Source: an uncultured Phocaeicola sp. (GTDB lineage Bacteria; Bacteroidota; Bacteroidia; Bacteroidales; Bacteroidaceae). Taken from it: a stretch of DNA of 44,245 bases. The DNA lies in contig CANQSM010000018.1 of assembly GCA_947626525.1 (NCBI GenBank), forward strand, positions 1 to 44,245, read 5' to 3'. Of the stretch, positions 18,012 to 44,190 are shown one piece after another. The notes below the pieces were generated by a model. It saw only the letters and a list, made by a program, of their open reading frames with translations. It searched no databases and was not told where the DNA came from. Numbering within the stretch: position 1 is the first letter of the stretch; each line of letters opens with the position of its first letter. The position numbers were made by a program, and so were the translations under genes.

Positions 18012-19415
18012 ATGGAAAAAATTCGTAGAACAAAGATTGTTGACCTTTTGAAATGTACCGATTTCGGTGCCATGGTTAATGTTAAGGGATGGGTCCGCAC
18101 TCGTCGTGGTAGCAAACAAGTGAATTTTATCGCTTTAAATGATGGTTCTACAATAAATAATGTACAGGTTGTTGTGGATGTGGCGGACTTTGACGAGGAA
18201 CTGCTGAAGCTGATTACCACCGGTGCTTGTCTGAATATAAACGGTGTGCTGACTGAATCGGTAGGTGCTGGACAGAAAGCTGAAATTCATGCGAAAGAAA
18301 TAGAGGTGCTGGGCGCATGCGATAATACGTATCCCTTACAGAAAAAAGGGCACTCTATGGAATTCTTGCGTGAAATCGCTCATCTGCGGCCGCGTACCAA
18401 TACTTTTGGCGCTGTCTTCCGTATTCGTCATAACATGGCGATTGCCATTCACAAATTCTTTCATGAAAGAGGATTCTTCTATTTTCATACTCCGTTGATT
18501 ACCGCGTCGGATTGTGAGGGGGCAGGACAAATGTTTCAGGTTACTACGCTGAATTTGTATGATTTGAAGAAAGATGAAAAAGGATCAATTATTTATGATG
18601 ATGACTTTTTTGGAAAACAGGCCAGTCTGACTGTTTCAGGGCAATTGGAAGGAGAGCTGGCTGCTACGGCATTAGGTGCTATTTACACTTTTGGTCCTAC
18701 TTTCCGTGCGGAAAACTCGAATACTCCTCGTCATTTGGCTGAATTTTGGATGATAGAGCCGGAGGTGGCTTTCAATGATATCATTGATAACATGGATTTG
18801 GCGGAAGCATTTATTAAGTATTGCGTACAATGGGCGCTGGATAATTGCTATGACGATGTTAAATTCTTGAATGATATGTTCGATAAAGGACTGATAGAAC
18901 GTCTTCAGGGAGTTTTGAAAGAGGATTTTGTACGTTTGTCCTATACGGAAGGTGTTCGGATTCTGGAAGAAGCCGTGGCGGGAGGGCATAAATTTGAATT
19001 CCCGGTATATTGGGGAGTAGACTTGGCTTCGGAACATGAACGCTATTTGGTGGAAGAGCATTTTAAGCGTCCGGTGATTCTGACGGATTATCCGAAAGAA
19101 ATCAAAGCTTTCTATATGAAACAGAATGAAGATGGAAAAACGGTGCGTGCCATGGATGTGTTGTTCCCGAAAATAGGGGAAATTATCGGTGGGTCGGAAC
19201 GTGAGGCCGATTATGATAAATTGATGAATCGTATTAAAGAGCTGGATATTCCAATGAAAGACATGTGGTGGTATTTGGATACACGCAAATTTGGTACTTG
19301 TCCCCATTCGGGATTTGGCTTGGGGTTTGAGCGTTTATTGCTGTTTGTTACGGGCATGACAAATATCCGCGATGTCATACCGTTCCCGCGTACGCCCCGT
19401 AATGTTGAGTTTTAG
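18012..19415 (+). CDS. asnS: Asparaginyl-tRNA synthetase
   Basis: A 467-residue class II synthetase. The N-terminal OB-fold anticodon-binding domain (about residues 15-105) includes [17 protein letters not shown]. Motif 2 is [18 protein letters not shown] and motif 3 is [10 protein letters not shown]. The EFWMIEPE segment and [10 protein letters not shown] near the C-terminus place it with AsnRS rather than AspRS. It is the last gene of the purB-rluB-asnS run, and the accessory locus begins directly after it. Confidence 0.95.
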
Positions 19416-19436
19416 GAATTGGGTACCATTAAAGTT

Positions 19437-19485
19437 CAAGTTCTGCAAAAATCATCGGCCATACAATAAATTTCTGTAACTTTAG
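19437..19485 (+). repeat. Left copy of a ~50-bp direct repeat flanking the accessory locus
   Basis: It shares an exact 19-base core, atacaataaatttctgtaa (19461-19479), with 30766-30784, and the surrounding bases (caagttc, tgcaaaaa, atcat) match with a few indels. The gene-free stretch 19416-19735 holds this repeat, a -7 box and a short ORF. Confidence 0.75.
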
Positions 19486-19598
19486 TTGCAAACCTCACAG
19501 TTATTCTTCTATGGGTAGGATAATTGTATAAATGGAAAAAATATATAGTTTTTTTTATATTTTTAGGAAAGTATGCCATGTTTTTTATAAGAAAGTTC

Positions 19599-19606
19599 TA
19601 ATTTTG
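19599..19606 (+). promoter_or_regulatory. -7 element upstream of the SusC operon
   Basis: TAATTTTG, with no clear -33. It lies 16 bases before a 33-codon ORF and 130 bases before the SusC signal-peptide ATG. Confidence 0.4.
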
Positions 19607-19621
19607 TACCATAACTAGTAC

Positions 19622-19723
19622 ATGAAGGGAGGAAGTTATATAAATTTTTTAGATGTCGATGATTTTCAGCGATATTATGTCCGGATGTTTCCTGAATTGA
19701 AGTATTTACCGGTGAATATATAA
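19622..19723 (+). CDS. 33-residue ORF resembling the start of an ECF sigma factor (possible remnant)
   Basis: An ATG just after the -7 box opens a 33-codon frame containing VDDFQRYYVRMFPELKYL. This loosely resembles the first helix of ECF sigma factors (aromatic/acidic, F..lY..yfp.L). It stops 12 bases before the SusC start. If related to FecI-type factors it is truncated to a fragment. It could equally be a chance ORF or a leader peptide. No other sigma or anti-sigma gene is nearby. Confidence 0.3.
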   Translation: MKGGSYINFLDVDDFQRYYVRMFPELKYLPVNI

Positions 19724-19735
19724 ATCCTATGTATA

Positions 19736-22700
19736 ATGAATAAAAAAATTATGAGAGTACTAACAAGGCTTTTATTGCTCGTCTTTGCGGTCAGCCTTCC
19801 GCCAGGAGGAATTTCCGCCCAGTCAGACGTCCCAGGGGGGGGGTAGTGCTGTAGTTTGGCAGGACACCCGTGTGAACATCTTATTAAAGAATGCTTCCAT
19901 CCGTGAAGTCTTTTCCGAAATCAAGAAGCTGGTGAAAGTAAACATTATGTACAGCAACGAAGACGTGAAGGATCTTCCCGTCAAGGATTACGATTTGCGG
20001 AATGCCACGTTGGAGCAAGTTATGAATGTAGCGTTGGCGGGTTCCGACCTGACCTTCGGGATGGTGAAGGATACCATCATTATTAAGCGTAAGGGGGAGG
20101 CAAAAAGAAACATTACCGGTAAGGTAATGGATGTGTCCGGACAGCCTATTCCCGGTGTCGCCGTGCAGGTGAAGGGCACCGCTTGCGGAACGACCACCGA
20201 TATGGACGGACATTTCGAACTCCCTTCCGACAACCGGTCCGAGGTGAAGCTTTCTTTTTCATTTGTCGGCATGAAGCGTCAGGAACTCACGTGGAGAGGT
20301 CGTGCTCTCAGCATTGTGATGGAAGAGGATGCTCGCCAGATAGATGAAGTCGTGGTTACCGGTTATCAGCGAGTGGACAAACGTCGTTCCACCAGTGCTA
20401 TTTCCACTGTGAAAGCCGAAGATGTATTGATACCCGGTATGACGAGCATCGATCAGGCTCTCGAAGGCCGTATTCCCGAGCTGGTGCTCACGACCAACTC
20501 CGGCGAGGTGGGTGCCACACCGCGAATCCGTGTGCGCGGTACCACCACTATTGTCGGTAACCGAGAACCACTTTGGGTATTGGACGGATTTGTCATGACC
20601 GACCCTGTCGATGTCAGTCCTGACGATCTCAACGATCCCGACTACATCAACATTGTGGGTAACGCTATCGCCGGCATCAATCCGCAGGACATCGAACGTA
20701 TTGACGTGTTGAAGGATGCTTCCGCCACCGCCCTTTATGGTACGCAGGCTGCCAACGGTGTCATTGTGGTTACGACAAAGAAAGGTTCCGTAGGCAAGCC
20801 GCGTTTTTCGTACAACCACTCATCCAAGTTCTCTGTACGTCCGCGATACAGCGACCGTTCCATCAATCTGATGAATTCGGTGGAGCGCGTACAATTCGGC
20901 AAGGAGCTTACCGACCTGCATTACAAATTTCCCACCAAGATGCCGATGGTCGGTTACGAAGGCGCATATTATAAATATTATACGGGACAGAGTACGTGGG
21001 AAGAATTTCAGTCGGAAGTAGCCCTTTACGAGTCTGTCAATACCGACTGGTTCAAGTTACTGACTCAAGACGCCTACTCGCACGATCACACTTTCGGGCT
21101 TTCGGGCGGCACCGACAATGTGCGCTACTATATTTCTCTCGGAGCGGACTTCGAGGAAGGTGTTACCCGGAACACCTCTTCCCGCCGTTACACAGCACTC
21201 GCCAATCTCGATATCGCTTTTTCCGAAAAAGTGCGGGCAAGTTTCTCGCTGAACGGTAACGTGCAAAAACGCGACAACCTCAACGATGGTATCAATGCGA
21301 TGAACTATGCCTACAACACTTCGCGCACCATTCCCGCCTACAATGCCGACGGCACCTATTATTATTATGGTGTATCCGGTGATAAGGGAAACATGTTCAA
21401 CTATAATATTCTGAACGAAATCGAAAACAGTTCCAATGAGTTGCGGGGCAACACCATCGGAGCGAACCTGACGGTACGCTACAATGTCATCAACGGTCTC
21501 GAATTGTCGGTGGCAGGTAATTACAACCATAGCGCCACCATGCAGGAGCAGTGGTGGGGTGAAAGAAGTTTCCACGCCGCCAATCTGCGTAATGCGGAAT
21601 ACGGCGATATTCCGCCCGTCGGTGAAACCGGTTACAGTCGATTGCCTTACGGTGGCATTCTCAACACGACCAATTCTGAACAAGATTCTTATACGTTCCG
21701 TTTCCAAGCCGAATATCGCAAACTTTTCGGGCACGATATGCAGCATCTGATTACGGCGATGGGCGGTTACGAGATGAACGGCAACACGTCGCACCGTATT
21801 TCCGACGAGCGGCGCGGCTACCTGCGCGAACGAGGCATGCAATTCGTTACGAATGTTGATTTGGAGAAATATCCCATTTACAAACAGTGGCTCAATGAAA
21901 ACGCTGCCACGATCGGACACAACATCGACCATTCGCTCTCGGGCTACCTCACGTTTTCGTACAGTCTGAAAGATTACTTCACCCTTAATGCTAACGGTCG
22001 TTTCGATGCCTCCAACAAATTCGGAAGTAACAGCAACCGTCGTTTCCTGCCTATATGGTCGGTTTCGGGTATGTGGAATCTGAAAGAAACGTTCATTCGC
22101 CACGAGTCGGTGCTTTCCGACCTGCGCTTGCGCGCCTCTTATGGTACGCAGGGTACGCAGCCTTCGGCAGAGGCAGGCGCCGTTCCCAATCTGGTAATCA
22201 GGCAGAACACTCTCAATACGATGTACAACGAATATACTTCGAACGTGAGCTATCCTCCCAATCCCAACCTCAAATGGGAGCTGACTCACCAGTTCAATAT
22301 ATCGTTGGACCTTTATCTGTTCGACAGCCGATTTGGCATAAGCGGTGACTTCTATTACAAAAAGACCAACAACTGTCTGATACCTATCGATGTATCTTCG
22401 GTGAACGGTTTTACACAGGCGGTCATTAACAATGGTGATTTGGAGAACAAAGGTTATTCGATAGGTATTTCAGGCACGCCCGTGAGAACCAAAGACTGGC
22501 GCTGGAGCCTGTACACTTACTTCTCGGGCAACCTCAACCACGTGCGTTCCAATCCCGCCGATGTATATAAGATAGAAGACTACCTCAACGGTACTGCCAT
22601 CGTCAATGGCAAAGCTATCGGCACTTTCTACTCCTACCATTATCTGGGATTGAATCCGAACAACGGTGTTCCTGTGTTTGACGATTACGCCGATCACAAA

Positions 22701-23357
22701 CATCTGCTCGAAGGAAAATCTCTGGAACAAGTCGTACTGATGACCATGACCGACAGCGGACAGCGCGACCCGCTCTTTTCGGGCAGTTTCGCTACGACGG
22801 TTTCTTGGAAACGGCTTTCGCTTTCGATGAATTTCAACTACAATCTCGGCTCGAAAGTGCGTCTGTTCGCGCTCTGTTCGCCTATTGTAACCGGCAACGG
22901 CGTAAGTGCGGAGACCAATGTGCGGAAAGAGTTTCTCAACCGCTGGATGGCACCGGGCGATGAACGCTACACCGACATTCCCGCCATCATGAGTCCTTCC
23001 GACCCCGACTACAATACATATAGCTGGCATTTCTCGAATCAGCCCACGCTTACCGAGACGAGCAGATCCATACCGCAATTCGCGACAAATGTGTGGGATA
23101 TGTACGACAAGTCCGATATCCGAGTGGTAAGCGGAAGCTACCTTAAATGTTCGTCTATTTCTCTTCGGTATTCACTGGAACCGAAATGGCTCCAGAAGAC
23201 GCCATTCTCCAACATACAGTTGAGTATCAGCGGTATGAATCTTTTCACCATATCGGCAAAAGAATTGAAAGGACAAGATCCCTCGCAAGCAGGCTTCGCC
23301 ATGCCGAACCTTTCTGTTCGTCCATCTTATACGACACAAGTGAATCTTACTTTCTAA
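19736..23357 (+). CDS. SusC/RagA-type TonB-dependent transporter with STN domain; frame broken by a G9 tract
   Basis: A classical signal peptide starts at ATG 19736 (MNKKIMRVLTRLLLLVF, cleavage near ISAQ), but with nine Gs at 19835-19843 this frame ends at TAG 19844. The body is open in the next frame to 23357. Ten (or seven) Gs would join them cleanly as ...SDVPGGGGSAVVWQDTRV. The order is STN domain (WQDTRVNILLKNASIREVF...), carboxypeptidase-regulatory-like domain (ITGKVMDVSGQPIPGV), TonB plug (EVVVTGYQ, RIRVRGTTTI, DVLKDASATALYG) and a large barrel ending in an aromatic residue (VNLTF). It would import a ligand delivered by SusD. The STN domain usually signals to a FecR anti-sigma factor, but none is present here. 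G/C-rich third positions set it apart from the core genes. Confidence 0.9.
19835..19843 (+). repeat. Homopolymeric G9 tract at the signal-peptide/body junction of SusC
   Basis: Nine consecutive G residues lie directly after the signal peptide region. One G added, or two removed, restores a secreted full-length transporter. Such tracts change length by slippage at replication. Confidence 0.8.
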
Positions 23358-23363
23358 AAGACT

Positions 23364-24956
23364 ATGAGTATGAAAAAAACAATATTTATATCAATTATAT
23401 TTTTGGTGACGCTCGGGGGGTGCAACTATCTCGATGATTACTCCCAAAGTCTGGTCGTCGTAAAAACGGTTTCCGACCTCGATGAAGTATTGTTGGGCGA
23501 TGTTTATATGTCCAGCAAAAACGGCGTGAAACAGCTTGCCTATGGCGATGTGGGCTGGTGGTTGCAGATACTTGACGACGATATCAATACCGTCGCATAT
23601 GACAACTCTTCCAGCAATGCTGATTTCGTAGATGATTCCTATTCCAATCCGTTGAATTATAATTATTTCGGGTATACGACTTGGCAAATGGAGGTGGGTC
23701 GCAGCTACGACGGCAAGCAATTGAACAGCGACGATGGTTTGTGGAACGATTTTTACCACCGCATCAATATCTGCAACATCATTCTTTCCGAAATCGAAGA
23801 ATTGGAAATCACCTCCGATGATGATAGGGCTGCGGCGTTGCGCATACGCGGTGAAGCTCGTTTCATGCGGGCATATTACTATTTCCTGCTGGCAAACATT
23901 TATGCCGATGCCTACGACCCCGACAAGGCGGAATCGACGTTGGGCATACCGGTGAAACTTACCGATTACATCGAGCACGACAAGGATAAGGAGACGCAAT
24001 TCGAGCGTGCTTCGCTCAGCGAAGTGTATGCCCAAATCGTGGAAGACCTCGAAACGTCCATCTCCTATTTCGATCAAAGTCCGCAAACGCACTCTTTCTA
24101 CCGGACATCGGGAAAAGCCGCCATGTTGCTGCTGAGTCGCGTTTACCTTTATATGCAGAAATGGGACGAAGCCCGTCTTATGGCAGATAAACTGCTCACC
24201 GAAGGCGTTTCACTGTGGAGCTATGCCGGCGATCTGAATGAAGGCGAAGCCCTGATTTCGCGCAACAATCCCGAGATTCTTTTCTCGGAAGGTTCGCTCA
24301 ACGTCCAGAACTTCATGCGGGCGAAAATAGGAGAGTTCTGCATTTCGCAAGATCTTTATTCTCTGTATGATGACACCGATTACCGTAAGACCAAGTATTT
24401 CGTACTCAATGAGAATACCGACAGCATAGCGCTTGGAAGCAAGTACGAACGGGGCAGCACCATTCAGTCGTATGTATCCGACCTTTACCTGTTGCGCAGC
24501 AGCGAAGCCTATCTCAATATGGCCGAGGCGTGCGCCATGGAGGGCGATGCTTATACCGGCGAAGCATTGAAATGGCTCAACCGCTTCCGCCATTACCGCA
24601 TTGCGAACTATCAGGATGAGACTTACGACCGCTCTACACTCATCGATGAGATACGTACCGAGCGCCGCAAGGAGTTCTGTCTCGAAGGGCAGCGCTGGTT
24701 CGACCTTCGTCGCTATGCCGTGAACAAAGAGTTTCCCTACAACCGGACGATCGAGCGTATGTATGCCGTCTTCAATGATGGCGGCAACGAGATGTTGCAC
24801 AACGAAATGTACCGTCTGGAAGAGCACGACAAGGCTTACACCTTCGCCATTCCGAAGTCGGTATTGAATTTCGATAGAGGAATGCCCGACAATGTACGCC
24901 CCGCACGGGAACCGATTGCTATTTCCAATCCCACTAACTCTGATGAAGATGAATAA
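23364..24956 (+). CDS. SusD/RagB-family surface lipoprotein
   Basis: A 530-residue lipoprotein. The signal ends in the lipobox LVTLGGC (Cys near residue 20), followed by the SusD helical repeats, including GEARFMRAYYYFLLANIYAD and the C-terminal ERRKEFCLEGQRWFDLRRYA, both hallmarks of the family. It sits on the outer membrane as the lid of the SusC channel and binds the ligand. It begins six bases after the SusC stop, so it is co-transcribed. Ligand type cannot be read from the sequence. The lack of glycosidases around it argues against a polysaccharide. Confidence 0.93.
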   Translation: MSMKKTIFISIIFLVTLGGCNYLDDYSQSLVVVKTVSDLDEVLLGDVYMSSKNGVKQLAYGDVGWWLQILDDDINTVAYDNSSSNADFVDDSYSNPLNYNYFGYTTWQMEVGRSYDGKQLNSDDGLWNDFYHRINICNIILSEIEELEITSDDDRAAALRIRGEARFMRAYYYFLLANIYADAYDPDKAESTLGIPVKLTDYIEHDKDKETQFERASLSEVYAQIVEDLETSISYFDQSPQTHSFYRTSGKAAMLLLSRVYLYMQKWDEARLMADKLLTEGVSLWSYAGDLNEGEALISRNNPEILFSEGSLNVQNFMRAKIGEFCISQDLYSLYDDTDYRKTKYFVLNENTDSIALGSKYERGSTIQSYVSDLYLLRSSEAYLNMAEACAMEGDAYTGEALKWLNRFRHYRIANYQDETYDRSTLIDEIRTERRKEFCLEGQRWFDLRRYAVNKEFPYNRTIERMYAVFNDGGNEMLHNEMYRLEEHDKAYTFAIPKSVLNFDRGMPDNVRPAREPIAISNPTNSDEDE

Positions 24957-24959
24957 CCT

Positions 24960-26057
24960 ATGAAAAAGCTACTGTATATCCTGCTTTTGGGCTCGACAAT
25001 ATACGCCTGCAACGATGACGAAGGTGCTTTGGAGCCGCAAATGCAATTTGAAAATATTTATACGATTGTCGATGATACCACCGATGCTGTAAAGCATCAT
25101 GTGTACGAGATCTACGAAAAATACGGCATTCCTGTCTATTTCAACGATACGATAGGTAAGGTTCTGGTGAAAACTGACGTCAATGGACAGCCCTTTTACC
25201 GTTACGAAACACTGGACCTCGCATGGAATTTCGATTCCTACGACCAGAATTTTACCTATGAATACGTCTACCTCACCGACCCTGAGCAGCAGGAAGCCAT
25301 GCTCGATGCCATCGAGCTATATCTCGAAAATGCTGCCAAACCGTTGTGGCCCTTTGCTTTCTTCGTAGTCGATAGCGCCCGCACCATTGACAGGCGGACG
25401 CTCAGACTGACGGAGTGGGAGGAAAAATACAGGCTCGATAACTTCCGTACCATTACCCTGCTGAACGGAAACTGGGATTGGTATTGGGACGATCCCGCAG
25501 AAGTCATGGACGAAATGAAACGGTCGTATGTGGTAAATAAAATAGCGTTCTTCGCTACCGAAGTCGCCCGGTTCGGCGCTATTTCTCAACCGAGCTGGTA
25601 TGACGAATATTGGAACTTGACCGACAAAATAGAAAACATTATCGATGATAACGGGCATAAATGGGATTATACTTATGGTGGCGGCTATTTTATTTACGCC
25701 GTTAACGACATCAACTTGATGGAACTGTTCAACGGGCCTGTCGGTATAGGTACTCTCATGAATGCTGCTTTCGCTCCTCACCCCGAAAGATATACCGAAG
25801 AGCAATGGAAAGCTCTTTCCGAGGCCGCACACTACATTGCAGGATCGCTCGGTTTCGTTTCGTACAATTCGGGCGATTATTCGGGCAGCGGTCAAACTCC
25901 CATTGATAGTGATGATGACCTGCGGGGTTACGTTAAAGTAATGCTCGAGACTTCCGATGCCGACTTCCGCGACGAATGGGGCTCGTATCCGCTGGTAATG
26001 GAAAAATATGAAATTGTTTATCGGATTCTTACCGAAGAACTGGGTCTTGAACTCTAA
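24960..26057 (+). CDS. Lipoprotein resembling import-associated zinc metallohydrolases, HExxH motif absent
   Basis: A 365-residue lipoprotein (lipobox GSTIYAC). Its plan resembles the SusC/D-associated 'substrate import-associated zinc metallohydrolase' lipoproteins: an N-terminal YEKYGIPVYFN segment, PLWPFAFFVVDS in the middle, GSLGFVSYNSGDYSGSG and a C-terminal KYEIVYRILTEELGL. In that family the region before the GFVS segment carries HExxH. Here I find no HExxH anywhere, and the usual acidic EDFAE stretch is replaced by DSDDDLRGY. If the assignment is right, it is a catalytically dead, binding-only relative. The assignment rests on remembered family patterns and position and is moderate. 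It follows susD after three bases. Confidence 0.55.
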   Translation: MKKLLYILLLGSTIYACNDDEGALEPQMQFENIYTIVDDTTDAVKHHVYEIYEKYGIPVYFNDTIGKVLVKTDVNGQPFYRYETLDLAWNFDSYDQNFTYEYVYLTDPEQQEAMLDAIELYLENAAKPLWPFAFFVVDSARTIDRRTLRLTEWEEKYRLDNFRTITLLNGNWDWYWDDPAEVMDEMKRSYVVNKIAFFATEVARFGAISQPSWYDEYWNLTDKIENIIDDNGHKWDYTYGGGYFIYAVNDINLMELFNGPVGIGTLMNAAFAPHPERYTEEQWKALSEAAHYIAGSLGFVSYNSGDYSGSGQTPIDSDDDLRGYVKVMLETSDADFRDEWGSYPLVMEKYEIVYRILTEELGLEL

Positions 26058-26069
26058 AAAATGTGTATT

Positions 26070-27722
26070 ATGAAGAAAATCAGTTTATATGCGCTTGCCG
26101 TCCTCATGCTCGGCTACTGGGGGTGCAGTGACGATGACGTGAAAACGTCCGCGCCCAAGACCGTTGTCGGTGATGTATTCATCGACCCGCGCGACGGACA
26201 TGAATATCATACCGTAACCATCGGCGACCAGACTTGGATGACCGAAAACCTCGCTTTCCGCCTTGACAGCGGCAGTTGGGCAGGCTGTTTCACATGGGAC
26301 GAAGAAGCTCCCTCTCCGTTGGACACGGCGGCAATCATCGCGGCGATACCCGACCCGACTCCCAAACTGGAAGTCCCATTCGAGGATTTTTTAAAATTGG
26401 TAAATGCCGCCATAGACAACGGCACCATTTCATCGGAAATTTCGGATGAGCTTGACGGAATGTATTCGCCCGCTCTGGTTGTACAAATGATTTTGATGTA
26501 CAATCCATCAAGCTACGAAGATTTTTATTCCGAGAGGGGAGGTTTGGGCTATTGGACAGAATATTATCCCTCTTTGGAAGAGTTGTTGGTTCCTCAGTTG
26601 GAAGCGATGAGAACCGATGAATTCACTCTCTTCAAAGGAAAGTTGAACGCTGCCATAGCCGACGGTACCATTTCATCGGAGCCCCTGCCCCCACCATACG
26701 ATAGGATGTCTCCCAACTCTATTGCCCAGCAGATATGGATGTACAATCCCCAAACCATAGAGCAATATATGGAATTTGTAAATATGATGGTTGGAAGTAT
26801 CGCATCTTTACAGGAGACATTGGTGCCCGTGTTGAACGATATCATTTCGAGTTGTACACCGAAGAAGGATCCTTATGAACTCTTCAAAGAGGGCATAGAA
26901 GCCGCCATTGCCGATGGCACCATTTCATCGGAGATTTCGGATGATCTTGACGGATACTACTCACCCGCTCTGGTGGTACAATTTGTTTTGCAGTCCAACC
27001 CTCAAAGCATCGAAGATTTTTTTCACTCCAAGAGAGGTGGCTTGGATAACTGGACTGAGTTATATGTGTCTTTGAATGAATCATTGGTACCTATATTGGA
27101 GGATATAGCGGCAGCCGCCATAGAGGAAGCCAAACCATGGGCTCCCTCCGCTGAGGAGAAAGCCGCTGCCATAGCTGCCGCCGTAAAAGAGGCAATGGAC
27201 GCTCATTTCACCGAAATGGAAGCGAGGAACGGACATTACTCCGAAAGCTACGGTTTGCTCTACACACTCGATGCCGCACGCAAAGCTATACCCGAAGGTT
27301 GGCGTCTGCCTACCGACAAAGACTGGCAAAAACTCGAAGTCGCATTAGGTATGGGCGCAGGTGATCTCGAGGGTCTCGAAAGGTGGCGCGACAGCGAAGC
27401 CGGTTATCTGCTCAAATCGGACGAAGTAGGCATGAATATCGTGTATAGCGGCAGCCGCATCTATGGCACCACAGGTACCTATGGAAATCTGAAACGCTAT
27501 CAGAACAAGAATATCAATGCTTACTACCTGACCGATACGACTCTCGGTCAAAACGATTCGACGACCCTCGTCATCATACGTAAAGTGTCGTCGCTGCAAG
27601 AGGGAATTTGGCGCGGTACATCGCACCTGACGGAAGCGGCATGCAGTGTGCGCCTCATCAAAGATGAGAACGCCTCTGCCGGCAAAGAGGAGGTGCCTTC
27701 AATTCCGGACAACAAAAAATAA
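26070..27722 (+). CDS. FISUMP-domain lipoprotein with a triplicated insert
   Basis: A 550-residue lipoprotein (lipobox LMLGYWGC; ATG 26070 gives a compact signal, 26061 is possible). A FISUMP domain starts at VFIDPRDGHEYHTVTIGDQ with WMTENLAF and resumes near residue 395 with GLLYTLDAARKAIPEGWRLP, LKSDE and a C-terminal CSVRLIKD. Between the halves lie three related ~70-90-residue units, each carrying a form of AAI.DGTISSE, then a hydrophobic SPALVVQ.. MYNP segment and ending in SL.E.LVP.L. FISUMP proteins are surface or fimbria-associated in Bacteroidetes, and ligand or partner binding is assumed. The insert appears to be in a loop, leaving the domain ends intact. Confidence 0.75.
   Translation: MKKISLYALAVLMLGYWGCSDDDVKTSAPKTVVGDVFIDPRDGHEYHTVTIGDQTWMTENLAFRLDSGSWAGCFTWDEEAPSPLDTAAIIAAIPDPTPKLEVPFEDFLKLVNAAIDNGTISSEISDELDGMYSPALVVQMILMYNPSSYEDFYSERGGLGYWTEYYPSLEELLVPQLEAMRTDEFTLFKGKLNAAIADGTISSEPLPPPYDRMSPNSIAQQIWMYNPQTIEQYMEFVNMMVGSIASLQETLVPVLNDIISSCTPKKDPYELFKEGIEAAIADGTISSEISDDLDGYYSPALVVQFVLQSNPQSIEDFFHSKRGGLDNWTELYVSLNESLVPILEDIAAAAIEEAKPWAPSAEEKAAAIAAAVKEAMDAHFTEMEARNGHYSESYGLLYTLDAARKAIPEGWRLPTDKDWQKLEVALGMGAGDLEGLERWRDSEAGYLLKSDEVGMNIVYSGSRIYGTTGTYGNLKRYQNKNINAYYLTDTTLGQNDSTTLVIIRKVSSLQEGIWRGTSHLTEAACSVRLIKDENASAGKEEVPSIPDNKK
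26379..27110 (+). repeat. Three coding repeats inside the FISUMP lipoprotein gene
   Basis: Units begin near 26379, 26631 and 26883 (252 bases apart each). All contain accatttcatcgga preceded by a gcc/gct-gccat-a/t-g-a/c-c motif. Units 1 and 3 are closest (ISDELDG or ISDDLDG, YYSPALVVQ, ERGGL or KRGGL). Unit 2 is more diverged. Confidence 0.8.
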
Positions 27723-27743: not shown

Positions 27744-28877
27744 ATGACACTGCGTTGTTTTGCTATAATACTGTTTTTCACGGCAGGGGGAGTATCTCTC
27801 CCTGCCCAGTATTGCGCTGATATTTCCTATACGGAATCGGGCGGAAAACTGATGGTAACAGCATCTGTAAACGGCAAAACAGGACGCTTCATTTTCGACA
27901 CGGGAGCACCGTGTACCCTCACTCATTCTTTTGCCGAAGGCATGGATATGCCGGAAATCGGTAGCGTGCGGACAATCGATGCCAACGGTCAAGTGGCTGA
28001 AAACGGTGTCGTGGAAATCGGAAACCTGTACACAGGAGGGGTAAACTTTCGCAGCGTGCAGGCGATTGTCATGGAAAAGGGAAATATGGTGGAGCGCTTT
28101 GGCGTGGACGGCATCATTGGCTACACGCTCTTCGGTGACAAAACGGTGCAGATAGACAGCCGGCGGCAGCACATCGCCATAGCTAGTGATGCCGCCCGAT
28201 TCGGCACGGATACGATGAGTTGCGTGGTCATGCTGGAGGGAACTCCCGTACCGGCATTTGAGATAGGACTCGGTACGACAGCCGTTGATACCGTGATGCT
28301 CGATACCGGTGCACCTAACTTCTACGACCTCTCCGAAAAAACCTATGCACGGTTGCATGACAGCGGCGTATGGCAACTGCTGAGTCGCGGACGTGGCATA
28401 CTGTCGCTTTCGGCGACGGGGCTCGAATCGAATACGCTTAAATACCGCGTGTGCATACCCTCGCTCTCGGTGGGCGAAAACAACTTCGCCCGCGTAACTG
28501 CTCAAACGACTTCGGGTACCGAATCACGGCTCGGCGTCGTTTTCCTGCGTACGGGCATCGTAACGCTCGACTACCCCAACCATCGCCTCTACTACGCCTC
28601 CTATACCGGTAAACCGCTCGACTTGTATACGAAAGAATGGAACGTGGTAGTTACTGTCATGGACAACGAGTTGAAGGCAGGTTTCGTGTGGGAAAGTATG
28701 TGGAACAGCCTTGATGGCGGCGAAAAAGTGGTAGAAATAAACGGTCGCCGCTTCGACAAAGTGGATATGTGGGAGGCAATGAGTACGGGCTTGGCGGGAC
28801 TGTCGGGCGATGAAGCTGAGATCGTGGTCATCGACCGTTCGGGACAGGAAAAACGCCTTGTCATAAAACGGGAATAG
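27744..28877 (+). CDS. Secreted two-lobed retropepsin-like aspartic protease with PDZ-like tail
   Basis: A 377-residue exported protein (signal peptide to about residue 22, SLPAQ). It carries two aspartic-protease triads in similar contexts: FIFDTGAPCTLT (near residue 50) and VMLDTGAPNFYD (near 185), each with downstream GVDGIIGYTLF-type or GVVFLRTGIVTLDY segments. This gives a pepsin-like two-lobe arrangement built from retropepsin-like halves. The last ~90 residues (VVEINGRRFDKVD...) look PDZ-like. It may trim peptides or process a surface partner (inference). It is preceded by the FISUMP gene after 21 bases. Confidence 0.75.
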   Translation: MTLRCFAIILFFTAGGVSLPAQYCADISYTESGGKLMVTASVNGKTGRFIFDTGAPCTLTHSFAEGMDMPEIGSVRTIDANGQVAENGVVEIGNLYTGGVNFRSVQAIVMEKGNMVERFGVDGIIGYTLFGDKTVQIDSRRQHIAIASDAARFGTDTMSCVVMLEGTPVPAFEIGLGTTAVDTVMLDTGAPNFYDLSEKTYARLHDSGVWQLLSRGRGILSLSATGLESNTLKYRVCIPSLSVGENNFARVTAQTTSGTESRLGVVFLRTGIVTLDYPNHRLYYASYTGKPLDLYTKEWNVVVTVMDNELKAGFVWESMWNSLDGGEKVVEINGRRFDKVDMWEAMSTGLAGLSGDEAEIVVIDRSGQEKRLVIKRE

Positions 28878-28938: not shown

Positions 28939-30399
28939 ATGAAAAAATTTGTTTTATTGCTGACTTTGTTACTGGGAGGAATGCCGCTCGGCGCGCAAAT
29001 AGAAGAAAGCGTTTACGGTGACGAAGTGAAGTTCGACGTGAAAATGAAATACGTTTACTCGTTTGAGGAGGCGTTAAAAAAAGCCCGTGAAGAAAACAAG
29101 CCTATCTTCGTAAACTGGTTTGAGGATTGGGCTGTTCCCTGCCACGCCATGAACAAATATGTGTTCAGCGACCAAAAATTTGCCGACTACATGGACACAC
29201 ATTTCGTGAACTTGTGGATAAACGCCAAATCGACTGACGGCAAGGCGTGGGCTGAAAAATACGATGTACATACTATGGCGCAATATTCGGTGCTCGATAA
29301 AAACGGCAACGTGATATTCCGCATCATCGGAGGCAAGCAACTGCCCGAATTTCAAGAATTGCTGGCGCTGTCGCTTGATCCAAAAACTACCATACAGGGT
29401 GTGGATGCCCGTTATGAAAAGGGCGAACGCAACCAAAAATTCTTCCGCACCTACATCGATGTACTCGATGCATCAGGGCAAAGCGACAAACGCGACTCGG
29501 TGTCCGATGAATTCATTGCAACCCTCAAGGACAAAGATTTGGTCAAAAAAGAAAACTGGAAATACGTTTCGCGCAGAGCAACCGATCGGGAGTCGGAACT
29601 GTTCAAAAAACTGATTTTCAGAAAAGAGGAATTTGCCAAAAATGTGGGCAGAGAAAAAGTGGAACAATTCATATCGAACGTCTATTTTGCCGAACTCTTC
29701 CCGTATGCCTGCTCCTCAACCGCCTACGATTCGAAAAAGATGGCGGACATCTATTTGGAAATGTTTCAGTGCTTGCCCGATACCAGCGCCATATTCGGCA
29801 TCTATAAAATCACGAAACTGCGTGGCGAAAAACGTTATGCCGAACTGACCGACGCCATGCGCACGATACTCAAAGACAACTACGACCAGTGGGCGATGAA
29901 CATAGATCTGACGCTCGGTGACATCAAAGGTTTGCCCAACGACGAGCGCGATGTGCTCATCGCTTACCTGCAAGAACGCGCACAGGCGGCACAGCGTCCG
30001 GCTATCGACTATTATAATCAGGCTATCCGTAACCTCGAAAACAAAGAGGGGATACAATTCAGTGACCTGTCGTTCGAGGAAGCGTTGAAAAAAGCCGGCG
30101 AAGAAGGCAAACGCGTGTTCATGGACTGCTACACAACGTGGTGCGGTCCATGCCGGGTGATGAATATGCAGGTATTCCCCCAGAAAATCGTGGGCGATTA
30201 CTTTAATGAACATTTCATTTCGTTGAAAATGGACATGGAAAAGGGCGAAGGTAAAATGTTGCTCGAAAAATACCAGGTGGAGGGATTCCCCACGATGTTC
30301 GTGCTTGAACCCGATGGCTCCGTAGTATACAAAATGGTGGGCTCGCGCGGCGCTCAGAAATTGCTCGACGAAGTGAAAAAATACGAAAATAAACTTTGA
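28939..30399 (+). CDS. Exported protein with two thioredoxin-fold domains, only the second with CxxC
   Basis: A 486-residue protein with a signal peptide (MKKFVLLLTLLLGGMPLGAQ). Domain 1 (about 30-145) begins FEEALKKAREENKPIFVNWF and has WAVPCH, where the first Cys of CxxC is Ala. Domain 2 (about 380-486) begins with a near copy, FEEALKKAGEEGKRVFMDCY, and has the active WCGPC and a cis-Pro loop GFPTMFV. A ~230-residue helical segment links them. One domain is thus oxidoreductase-competent and the other probably binding only. It is the last gene of the locus and is followed by a terminator. Confidence 0.85.
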   Translation: MKKFVLLLTLLLGGMPLGAQIEESVYGDEVKFDVKMKYVYSFEEALKKAREENKPIFVNWFEDWAVPCHAMNKYVFSDQKFADYMDTHFVNLWINAKSTDGKAWAEKYDVHTMAQYSVLDKNGNVIFRIIGGKQLPEFQELLALSLDPKTTIQGVDARYEKGERNQKFFRTYIDVLDASGQSDKRDSVSDEFIATLKDKDLVKKENWKYVSRRATDRESELFKKLIFRKEEFAKNVGREKVEQFISNVYFAELFPYACSSTAYDSKKMADIYLEMFQCLPDTSAIFGIYKITKLRGEKRYAELTDAMRTILKDNYDQWAMNIDLTLGDIKGLPNDERDVLIAYLQERAQAAQRPAIDYYNQAIRNLENKEGIQFSDLSFEEALKKAGEEGKRVFMDCYTTWCGPCRVMNMQVFPQKIVGDYFNEHFISLKMDMEKGEGKMLLEKYQVEGFPTMFVLEPDGSVVYKMVGSRGAQKLLDEVKKYENKL

Positions 30400-42663: not shown

Positions 42664-44190
42664 ATGATTAAGTTTACAAATTTTAGTGGCATGGGAGGAG
42701 GTAAAATTAACCTCTGCAAAACATTAGCAGTTGGAATTTGCGTGTTTTCCCAATGGCCTCAGATTACGCATGCTAGTGCGATTGAGGGAGAGAGAGTAAA
42801 GATTGGGGTGGGAATGGCTACCCTAAATCAGAGTAAAGAAACTATTCAAGGTGTGGTATTGGATGAGAGAGGTAAGCCTTTGCCCGGTGCATCCGTCCTA
42901 TTGAAAGGCACCCAAAACGGAACCGTCACCGATTTGGACGGAAAATTCACTTTAACGTATTCTTCAGATGTGGCGAAACCCCAATTGGTGGTAAGCTTCA
43001 TTGGTATGGCAACCCGTACGGTCGATATTGCCGGTCGTAAGGAGTTGAAAATAGCTTTGTTCCCTGTGTTGAACGATTTGGATGAAGTTGTCGTGATAGG
43101 TTATGGCACGGCCAAGGCTAAAGATTTGACAGGATCGGTATCTCGTTTGAGCGAGAAAGACATTGAGATGGCGCCAATGACTTCCAGCATTTCCGGAATG
43201 CTTCAGGGACGGGCATCCGGAGTCAATGTAATGATCTCGAGTGCTTCCCCTACCTCTCCGGTATCAGTGGTAATTCGTGGTCAGTCTTCCTTATCGGGTG
43301 ACGGGCAGCCCTTGTGGGTCATTGACGGAGTGCCTCAATATTCGAGTGGTATTTCCGGTGATGTTTCCAATACCTTATATAATTTGAATCTGAATGATGT
43401 ATCAAGTATTGATATTTTGAAAGATGCGTCGGCAACGGCTATCTATGGTTCGCGTGCGGCCAGTGGGGTTGTGCTTGTCACAACAAAAAGTGGTGCGGAA
43501 GGGATGAAGCCAACCATAGAGTTCAGTTTGCGTTGGGGATGGCAAGTATTAAATTCAAATGATTTTAAGACAATGAATGCCGAGCAATATGTAGCCTTTT
43601 CTAAGCAAGCCAATCTATTGGAGGCTTATCGTCAGGGTGGCATAACTTATTTTAATAGGAAGTACATGGATACGAGTAAATTTAATCAGCTTCATACCAG
43701 CCAATGGGATATGAGTGATATCGATGACATGTGGCTTCCTAATGCTTACTATAACGGGACGGATAATTACTGGGATATGCTGACACAGAATGCGTTGGCT
43801 CAGGATTATAGTGTCTCATTACGAGGCGGAAGTAAGTCAAATTCATATTTTGCCTCAGTAAATTACAAGAATCAGGACGGGGTGGTAAAAGGCAGCAACT
43901 CTCGGTACGCCGGCGCTCGTTTTAACTTTGAGTCACAAGTAAGTGAAGTGGTGAAGTTTGGGTTGAACATGAATATTTCTTCACGTCAAGCAAATAACAA
44001 GGACAACATGATTGGTCGAATCATTGGCATGCGTCCGGACTATCCGGCCTATAATGAAGATGGAGGAATCAACACCATAGACTTCTATACCAAGAATCCG
44101 TTGATTGAATTGATGGATAAAAATTATAGTGAGTCCCGCAATTTAAATGCTTCGACCTATTTGGAATATAATATAGGGATATTCAGTTAA
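42664..44190 (+). CDS. SusC/RagA-type TonB-dependent transporter, N-terminal half; frame ends prematurely
   Basis: The visible 508 residues hold a signal peptide (to about residue 38, ITHAS), a carboxypeptidase-regulatory-like domain (IQGVVLDERGKPLPGASVLL), the TonB box region (LDEVVVIGYGTAKAKDLTGS), the plug (SVVIRGQSSLSGDGQPLWV, DILKDASATAIYGSRAASG) and the first barrel strands. There is no STN domain, unlike the SusC at 19.7 kb. Family members are about 1,000 residues, but this frame stops at 44190 after STYLEYNIGIFS. One extra T near 44188 would continue it as FSLKAA... to the window edge. It is either a real frameshift or truncation, or poor sequence near an assembly end. Lower G/C use matches the core genes. 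Confidence 0.85.
   Translation: MIKFTNFSGMGGGKINLCKTLAVGICVFSQWPQITHASAIEGERVKIGVGMATLNQSKETIQGVVLDERGKPLPGASVLLKGTQNGTVTDLDGKFTLTYSSDVAKPQLVVSFIGMATRTVDIAGRKELKIALFPVLNDLDEVVVIGYGTAKAKDLTGSVSRLSEKDIEMAPMTSSISGMLQGRASGVNVMISSASPTSPVSVVIRGQSSLSGDGQPLWVIDGVPQYSSGISGDVSNTLYNLNLNDVSSIDILKDASATAIYGSRAASGVVLVTTKSGAEGMKPTIEFSLRWGWQVLNSNDFKTMNAEQYVAFSKQANLLEAYRQGGITYFNRKYMDTSKFNQLHTSQWDMSDIDDMWLPNAYYNGTDNYWDMLTQNALAQDYSVSLRGGSKSNSYFASVNYKNQDGVVKGSNSRYAGARFNFESQVSEVVKFGLNMNISSRQANNKDNMIGRIIGMRPDYPAYNEDGGINTIDFYTKNPLIELMDKNYSESRNLNASTYLEYNIGIFS

Follow-up and report, generated by a model that had tools for sequence, protein, structure and literature searches.

The window, a 44,245-nucleotide stretch of DNA from an uncultured Phocaeicola species, carries on its forward strand a SusC gene whose reading frame is broken near its 5' end by a run of nine Gs. 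The start codon and the signal peptide, the latter called by eye, take up the 33 codons (19736–19834) in front of the run (19835–19843), and the frame that opens at the ATG at 19736 encodes MNKKIMRVLTRLLLLVFAVSLPPGGISAQSDVPGGG, a peptide of 36 residues closed by a TAG at 19844–19846. The body of the protein lies in the +1 frame relative to the signal peptide and is open for 1,171 codons from 19842 to a stop codon ending at 23357, with Pfam matches to STN, CarbopepD_reg_2, Plug and TonB-dependent β-barrel domains, such that the tract sits between the signal peptide and the STN domain. The STN match (27.7 bits) falls just below its cut-off of 28.4, and TIGR04056, which describes SusC/RagA TonB-linked outer-membrane proteins, scores 20109–23354 at 651.9 bits, its cut-off being 368.25. 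The positions of the G run, ATG and TAG, as well as the STN-SusC body in the +1 frame, had been pointed out in a preliminary description of this DNA and are all borne out.

The 5' part of the gene thus contains a homopolymer of at least eight bases, and its length sets whether the full protein is read: the signal-peptide frame and the body frame join solely at tract lengths that leave a remainder of 2 modulo 3, i.e. at 8 or 11 Gs. The preliminary description had it that ten or seven Gs would restore the transporter, which is incorrect; with ten Gs the signal-peptide frame gains only a few codons (VVL) before a stop, and the restored peptide that it gave, DVPGGGGSAVV, is the one produced by 11 Gs. 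A 33-codon open frame (19622–19723), noted by eye, ends 12 nucleotides 5' of the SusC start codon, and no tandem repeats were found in the window.

All genes that follow are likewise on the forward strand. The SusC gene is adjoined by its SusD partner (23364–24956), which has SusD-like_3 and SusD_RagB matches, and three nucleotides past it begins an open frame for a 365-residue protein without a Pfam match (24960–26057), followed by a gene for a protein with a Fib_succ_major domain (26061–27722). Genes for an aspartyl-protease-like protein (27744–28877) and a thioredoxin-like protein (28939–30399) come next and, judging by their spacing, probably share the SusCD operon; the presence of these two neighbours suggests peptides as a tentative candidate for the imported substrate.

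A paralogue on another contig of the same genome (C43, locus L116) reads GGTGGG where the window gene has its nine Gs, and is therefore free of the tract. It forms one intact frame, which leads from MNRKIMRVL by way of SDVPVGTAVV to the SusC body and has an STN match of 35.0 bits, and it follows that the signal peptide and the body of the window gene belong together. The two genes are 94% identical in DNA over the first 100 codons past the tract, and identity drops to about 50% further downstream; their divergence is mostly synonymous (pS 0.69, pN 0.34, near saturation). When the paralogue (L116, 3369–6992) is set beside the window gene (19736–23357), the pattern resembles an exchange of N-terminal parts between genes.

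A homopolymer of nine bases is in principle sufficient for slippage of RNA polymerase or of the ribosome. Were slippage of either kind programmed, some SusC would be made in full whatever the length of the tract, and the run would set a level instead of acting as a switch. A frameshift-stimulating RNA structure past the tract was considered and rejected, the RNA just past it being no more structured than shuffled sequences (z 0.62), and many tract-bearing SusC genes described below are in frame; programmed slippage as the explanation of the tract is therefore highly improbable, though it could coexist with a switch. It is even harder to credit that the locus is switched by DNA inversion and that the G tract is incidental. 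Passages of PMC11868660 and PMC12632263 do give inversion as the way in which Bacteroides SusC/D switch, yet the 801 bases from 19300 to 20100 hold only one 10-nucleotide inverted pair, with arms 199 nucleotides apart, and no promoter-flanking inverted repeats of the invertase type, and the point at which the frames part is the G tract.

The window tract can be set against the rest of its genome (G000, an assembly of 233 contigs) and against a comparison set with one genome per species. Within the window alone, runs matching seven Gs are ordinary in number (4 found, 2.95 expected). Genome-wide there are 61 G runs of at least 8, 50 of them of at least 9 and 11 of exactly 8, as compared with 17 of exactly 7, and this long-tract class is far from the tail expected by chance. 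In 386,608 bases of loci, the numbers of runs of length 3 to 12 were 4610, 936, 155, 13, 1, 11, 27, 16, 4 and 2, in which only lengths up to 7 serve as background, the loci having been picked for runs of at least 8. A comparison of runs of exactly 7 with runs of at least 9, which covered nine genomes, gave 8 vs 57 in G001, 9 vs 34 in G008 and 6 vs 16 in G009, and 37 vs 0 in G005, 20 vs 2 in G016, 11 vs 2 in G017, 15 vs 1 in G022 and 0 vs 0 in G019. The tract-rich genomes therefore carry a second length class, at 9–12, which is absent from the tract-poor genomes compared. Runs of at least 9 number from 0 to 57 across 14 other genomes of the genus; outside the genus there are 0 to 10 in 42 of 46 genomes, the others being G020 (11), G021 (17), G024 (26) and G044 (17). 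Loss of MutS as the cause of the tracts was considered and rejected: MutS scored above cut-off in 20 of 20 genomes, and since it is intact in those rich in tracts, no repair defect accounts for high slippage.

The tracts are concentrated at the 5' ends of SusC genes. With the 5' zone taken as −450 to +600 nucleotides around the start of the SusC profile match, a span drawn after the positions were known, which makes p-values for it descriptive, 15 of the 61 tracts of the source genome lie in the zones of 15 of the 31 SusC genes counted, where 0.53 would be expected (about 28 times expectation), and the rest of those 31 bodies contain none (1.11 expected). The same clustering is seen in two genomes of the genus, G001 (13 of 69 tracts, 0.73 expected) and G009 (7 of 18, 0.27 expected), and in one genome of another family, G044 (4 of 22, 0.25 expected); in G021 the count is 1 of 21 (0.04 expected), and in none of these genomes do tracts occur in the rest of the SusC bodies. 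These counts used 31 of 51 SusC rows in G000, 37 of 53 in G001 (36 entries after two fragments of one gene were merged), 53 of 53 in G009, 25 of 35 in G044 (24 entries after two were merged) and 4 of 21 in G021, the dropped rows being partial or weak. The SusC lists themselves are incomplete, with 56 of 59 candidates scored in G000, 53 of 69 in G001 and 53 of 89 in G009, and a SusC-like gene with a tract (L159) is missing from the G009 list. G024, a genome of the same family, was left out of the count; it has 44 runs of at least 8, yet only two SusC matches above cut-off, and by eye no tract was seen near either of them, which counts against the link with SusC. Both properties of contingency loci, tracts beyond chance and their presence in a restricted class of genes, are nonetheless found in the source genome, and the window tract is one of a repertoire, of which the preliminary description says nothing.

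Read by eye for frames and start codons, 10 of the 15 tract-bearing SusC genes of the source genome are in frame (contigs C1, C3, C9, C15, C23, C31, C39, C49, C55 and C149, with C9 truncated where its contig ends), and the other 5 are out of frame (C18, C21, C73, C76 and C105). Both states recur in other genomes: 5 in frame, 7 out of frame and 1 unclear in G001; 5, 1 and 1, respectively, in G009; 2 in and 2 out in G044; in G021 the one gene is in frame. Judging from the translations, SusC tracts code for Gly, or for Pro when they are C runs. Some lie just past the signal peptide or in front of the hydrophobic stretch, others between the STN and CarbopepD_reg domains or within either of these, and one lies in the plug region. 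The counterparts of the C1 and C9 genes in G001 (L134 and L130) have nine Gs at the same place and are in frame. The C3 gene has nine Cs and is in frame, whereas its G001 counterpart (L126, about 60% identity) has ten Cs and is out of frame; a G009 gene (L137) scores about equal to L126 as a match to C3.

These counts bear on the possibility that the nine Gs arose by error in sequencing or assembly, the actual tract being in frame and the window SusC constitutively ON. Homopolymers are prone to error and the assembly is in 233 contigs, and the C105 gene, which has a tract of ten Gs, is broken a second time some 550 nucleotides further on (L105, about 1552–1564), at a place where there is no G run and for no evident reason; it is therefore not a clean OFF state, and this gene may be decayed or misassembled. 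Miscounting, however, can produce neither 61 long tracts nor their clustering at SusC 5' ends, and ten other SusC genes with tracts are in frame. Error is on this evidence unlikely, and it would alter the state of the window copy and not the nature of its tract.

Alternatively, the gene might be decaying, with the tract as a one-way frameshift in a pseudogene. Consistent with that, the 12 distinct nearest relatives of the window SusC examined, 31–51% identical by tblastn, are all intact (12/12), and none of the 12 loci contains a G run of at least 8. On the other hand, 1,171 codons are still open downstream of the tract, SusD is intact, the changes relative to the paralogue are mainly synonymous, with values near saturation, and tracts of the same class recur at 5' ends both in and out of frame, all of which makes decay very unlikely. 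Orthologues with an intact frame and no tract were what the preliminary description had named as evidence against a switch, and formally the relatives have this form; but they are only 31–51% identical, and other SusC genes keep the tract between species. A separate scan of genome contigs with the SusC body gave five distant loci, with best segments at 25–38%.

The explanation that accounts best for the split frames, for the 15 of 61 tracts at SusC 5' zones and for the occurrence of both frame states is the one first suggested in the preliminary description, namely that the window SusC is a contingency (phase-variable) locus switched by slippage in its poly-G tract, and to this we assign a probability of roughly 0.8. 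Slipped-strand mispairing during replication would add or remove a G, presumably in a reversible manner. At lengths with a remainder of 2 modulo 3 the signal peptide would be joined to the body and a TonB-dependent importer exported, while at other lengths translation would end just past the signal peptide; the nine Gs of the window copy would correspond to OFF, with only the 36-residue peptide made. Without SusC the SusCD pair should be unable to import, whether or not SusD is made, and 15 such genes could render the population a mosaic of importer ON/OFF combinations. Against a switch stand the tract-free state of all 12 nearest relatives examined, the second break in the C105 gene, the missing SusC link in G024 and the intact MutS of the tract-rich genomes.

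Tracts also occur in genes other than SusC, and those examined are of surface or regulatory kinds; the assignment covered part of the 61 tracts, a number of which are intergenic. In the source genome they lie at or beside five Acyl_transf_3 genes (L073, L086, L100, L101), one of which (L086, about 4002) lies in two frames, and further tract genes encode two AlgX-like proteins (one below cut-off), a TAGT glycosyltransferase, a C5-methylase, an AraC-type regulator, a fimbrillin-like protein, a FecR protein and an ion channel that is split at the tract. Poly-G or poly-C runs were found in FecR-type anti-sigma genes at L089 (4002–4010), L154 (1987) and L156 (1428), all in frame, and at L155 (1498), where the gene is split; three of these four FecR genes, two in frame and the split one, are from sister species. 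Two hybrid two-component sensors of G009 (Reg_prop, HisKA, HATPase) have C runs on the coding strand, one of them in frame (L158, 1700), whereas in the other (L163, 1679) a run of ten Cs separates two open pieces. A broader reading, put forward with moderate confidence, is a poly-G/poly-C contingency system over nutrient import that takes in SusC, FecR and hybrid-sensor genes, in which independent slippage would give each cell a random set of importers, beside tract-bearing polysaccharide-modification genes; it would operate in a genus of the Bacteroidales and in one or more species outside its family.

The preliminary description had considered a poly-G switch of nutrient import unusual. It is not without precedent, as the neisserial haemoglobin receptors HmbR and HpuAB are described in PMC3786947 as phase-variable through poly-G tracts. 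Common to both cases is a poly-G run within the coding frame of an outer-membrane receptor for a nutrient, which is turned ON or OFF by frame; the receptors, the phylum and the nutrient differ, however, switching is established there and deduced here, and up to 15 importer genes carry tracts in the source genome. For Bacteroides, by contrast, inversion is what the passages of PMC11868660 and PMC12632263 name, citing invertase-driven phase variation of SusC/SusD in Bacteroides fragilis, and the words "slipped" and "homopolymer" are absent from those of PMC12632263. That system shares with the window locus the importer family, a relationship at the level of the order and a stochastic choice of importer, and differs in using site-specific inversion where the window has a homopolymer and no notable inverted repeat. 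Among the matches listed in the literature search, titles and abstract openings contained no report of poly-G switching of SusC.

From the parts of the literature seen, the simple-sequence-repeat repertoires of Campylobacter, Helicobacter and Neisseria are similar in that one genome has numerous poly-G/C tracts, which lie in surface and modification genes, but the largest class found here is SusC importers, together with FecR and hybrid-sensor regulators, in a Bacteroidales host. Within the Bacteroidota, a "putative phase variation mechanism" is mentioned in PMC13183296 for the Fibrobacter succinogenes domain (FSD) adhesins of Ornithobacterium hominis. These are also surface proteins, and a Fib_succ_major gene follows the SusCD pair in the window; they are adhesins and not SusC, however, and the passages of that paper do not name the mechanism.

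If the slippage reading is true, nutrient use, and possibly phage sensitivity, would vary through bet-hedging at many loci in parallel, and many "broken" SusC genes in assemblies would represent switch states and not pseudogenes. Such a slippage repertoire would differ from the inversion-driven surface phase variation described for Bacteroides in the passages of PMC11868660 and PMC12632263. Elsewhere in the window, a second SusC-like gene (42664–44190) lies near the contig end, where it matches positions 2–431 only of the profile and holds a stop.
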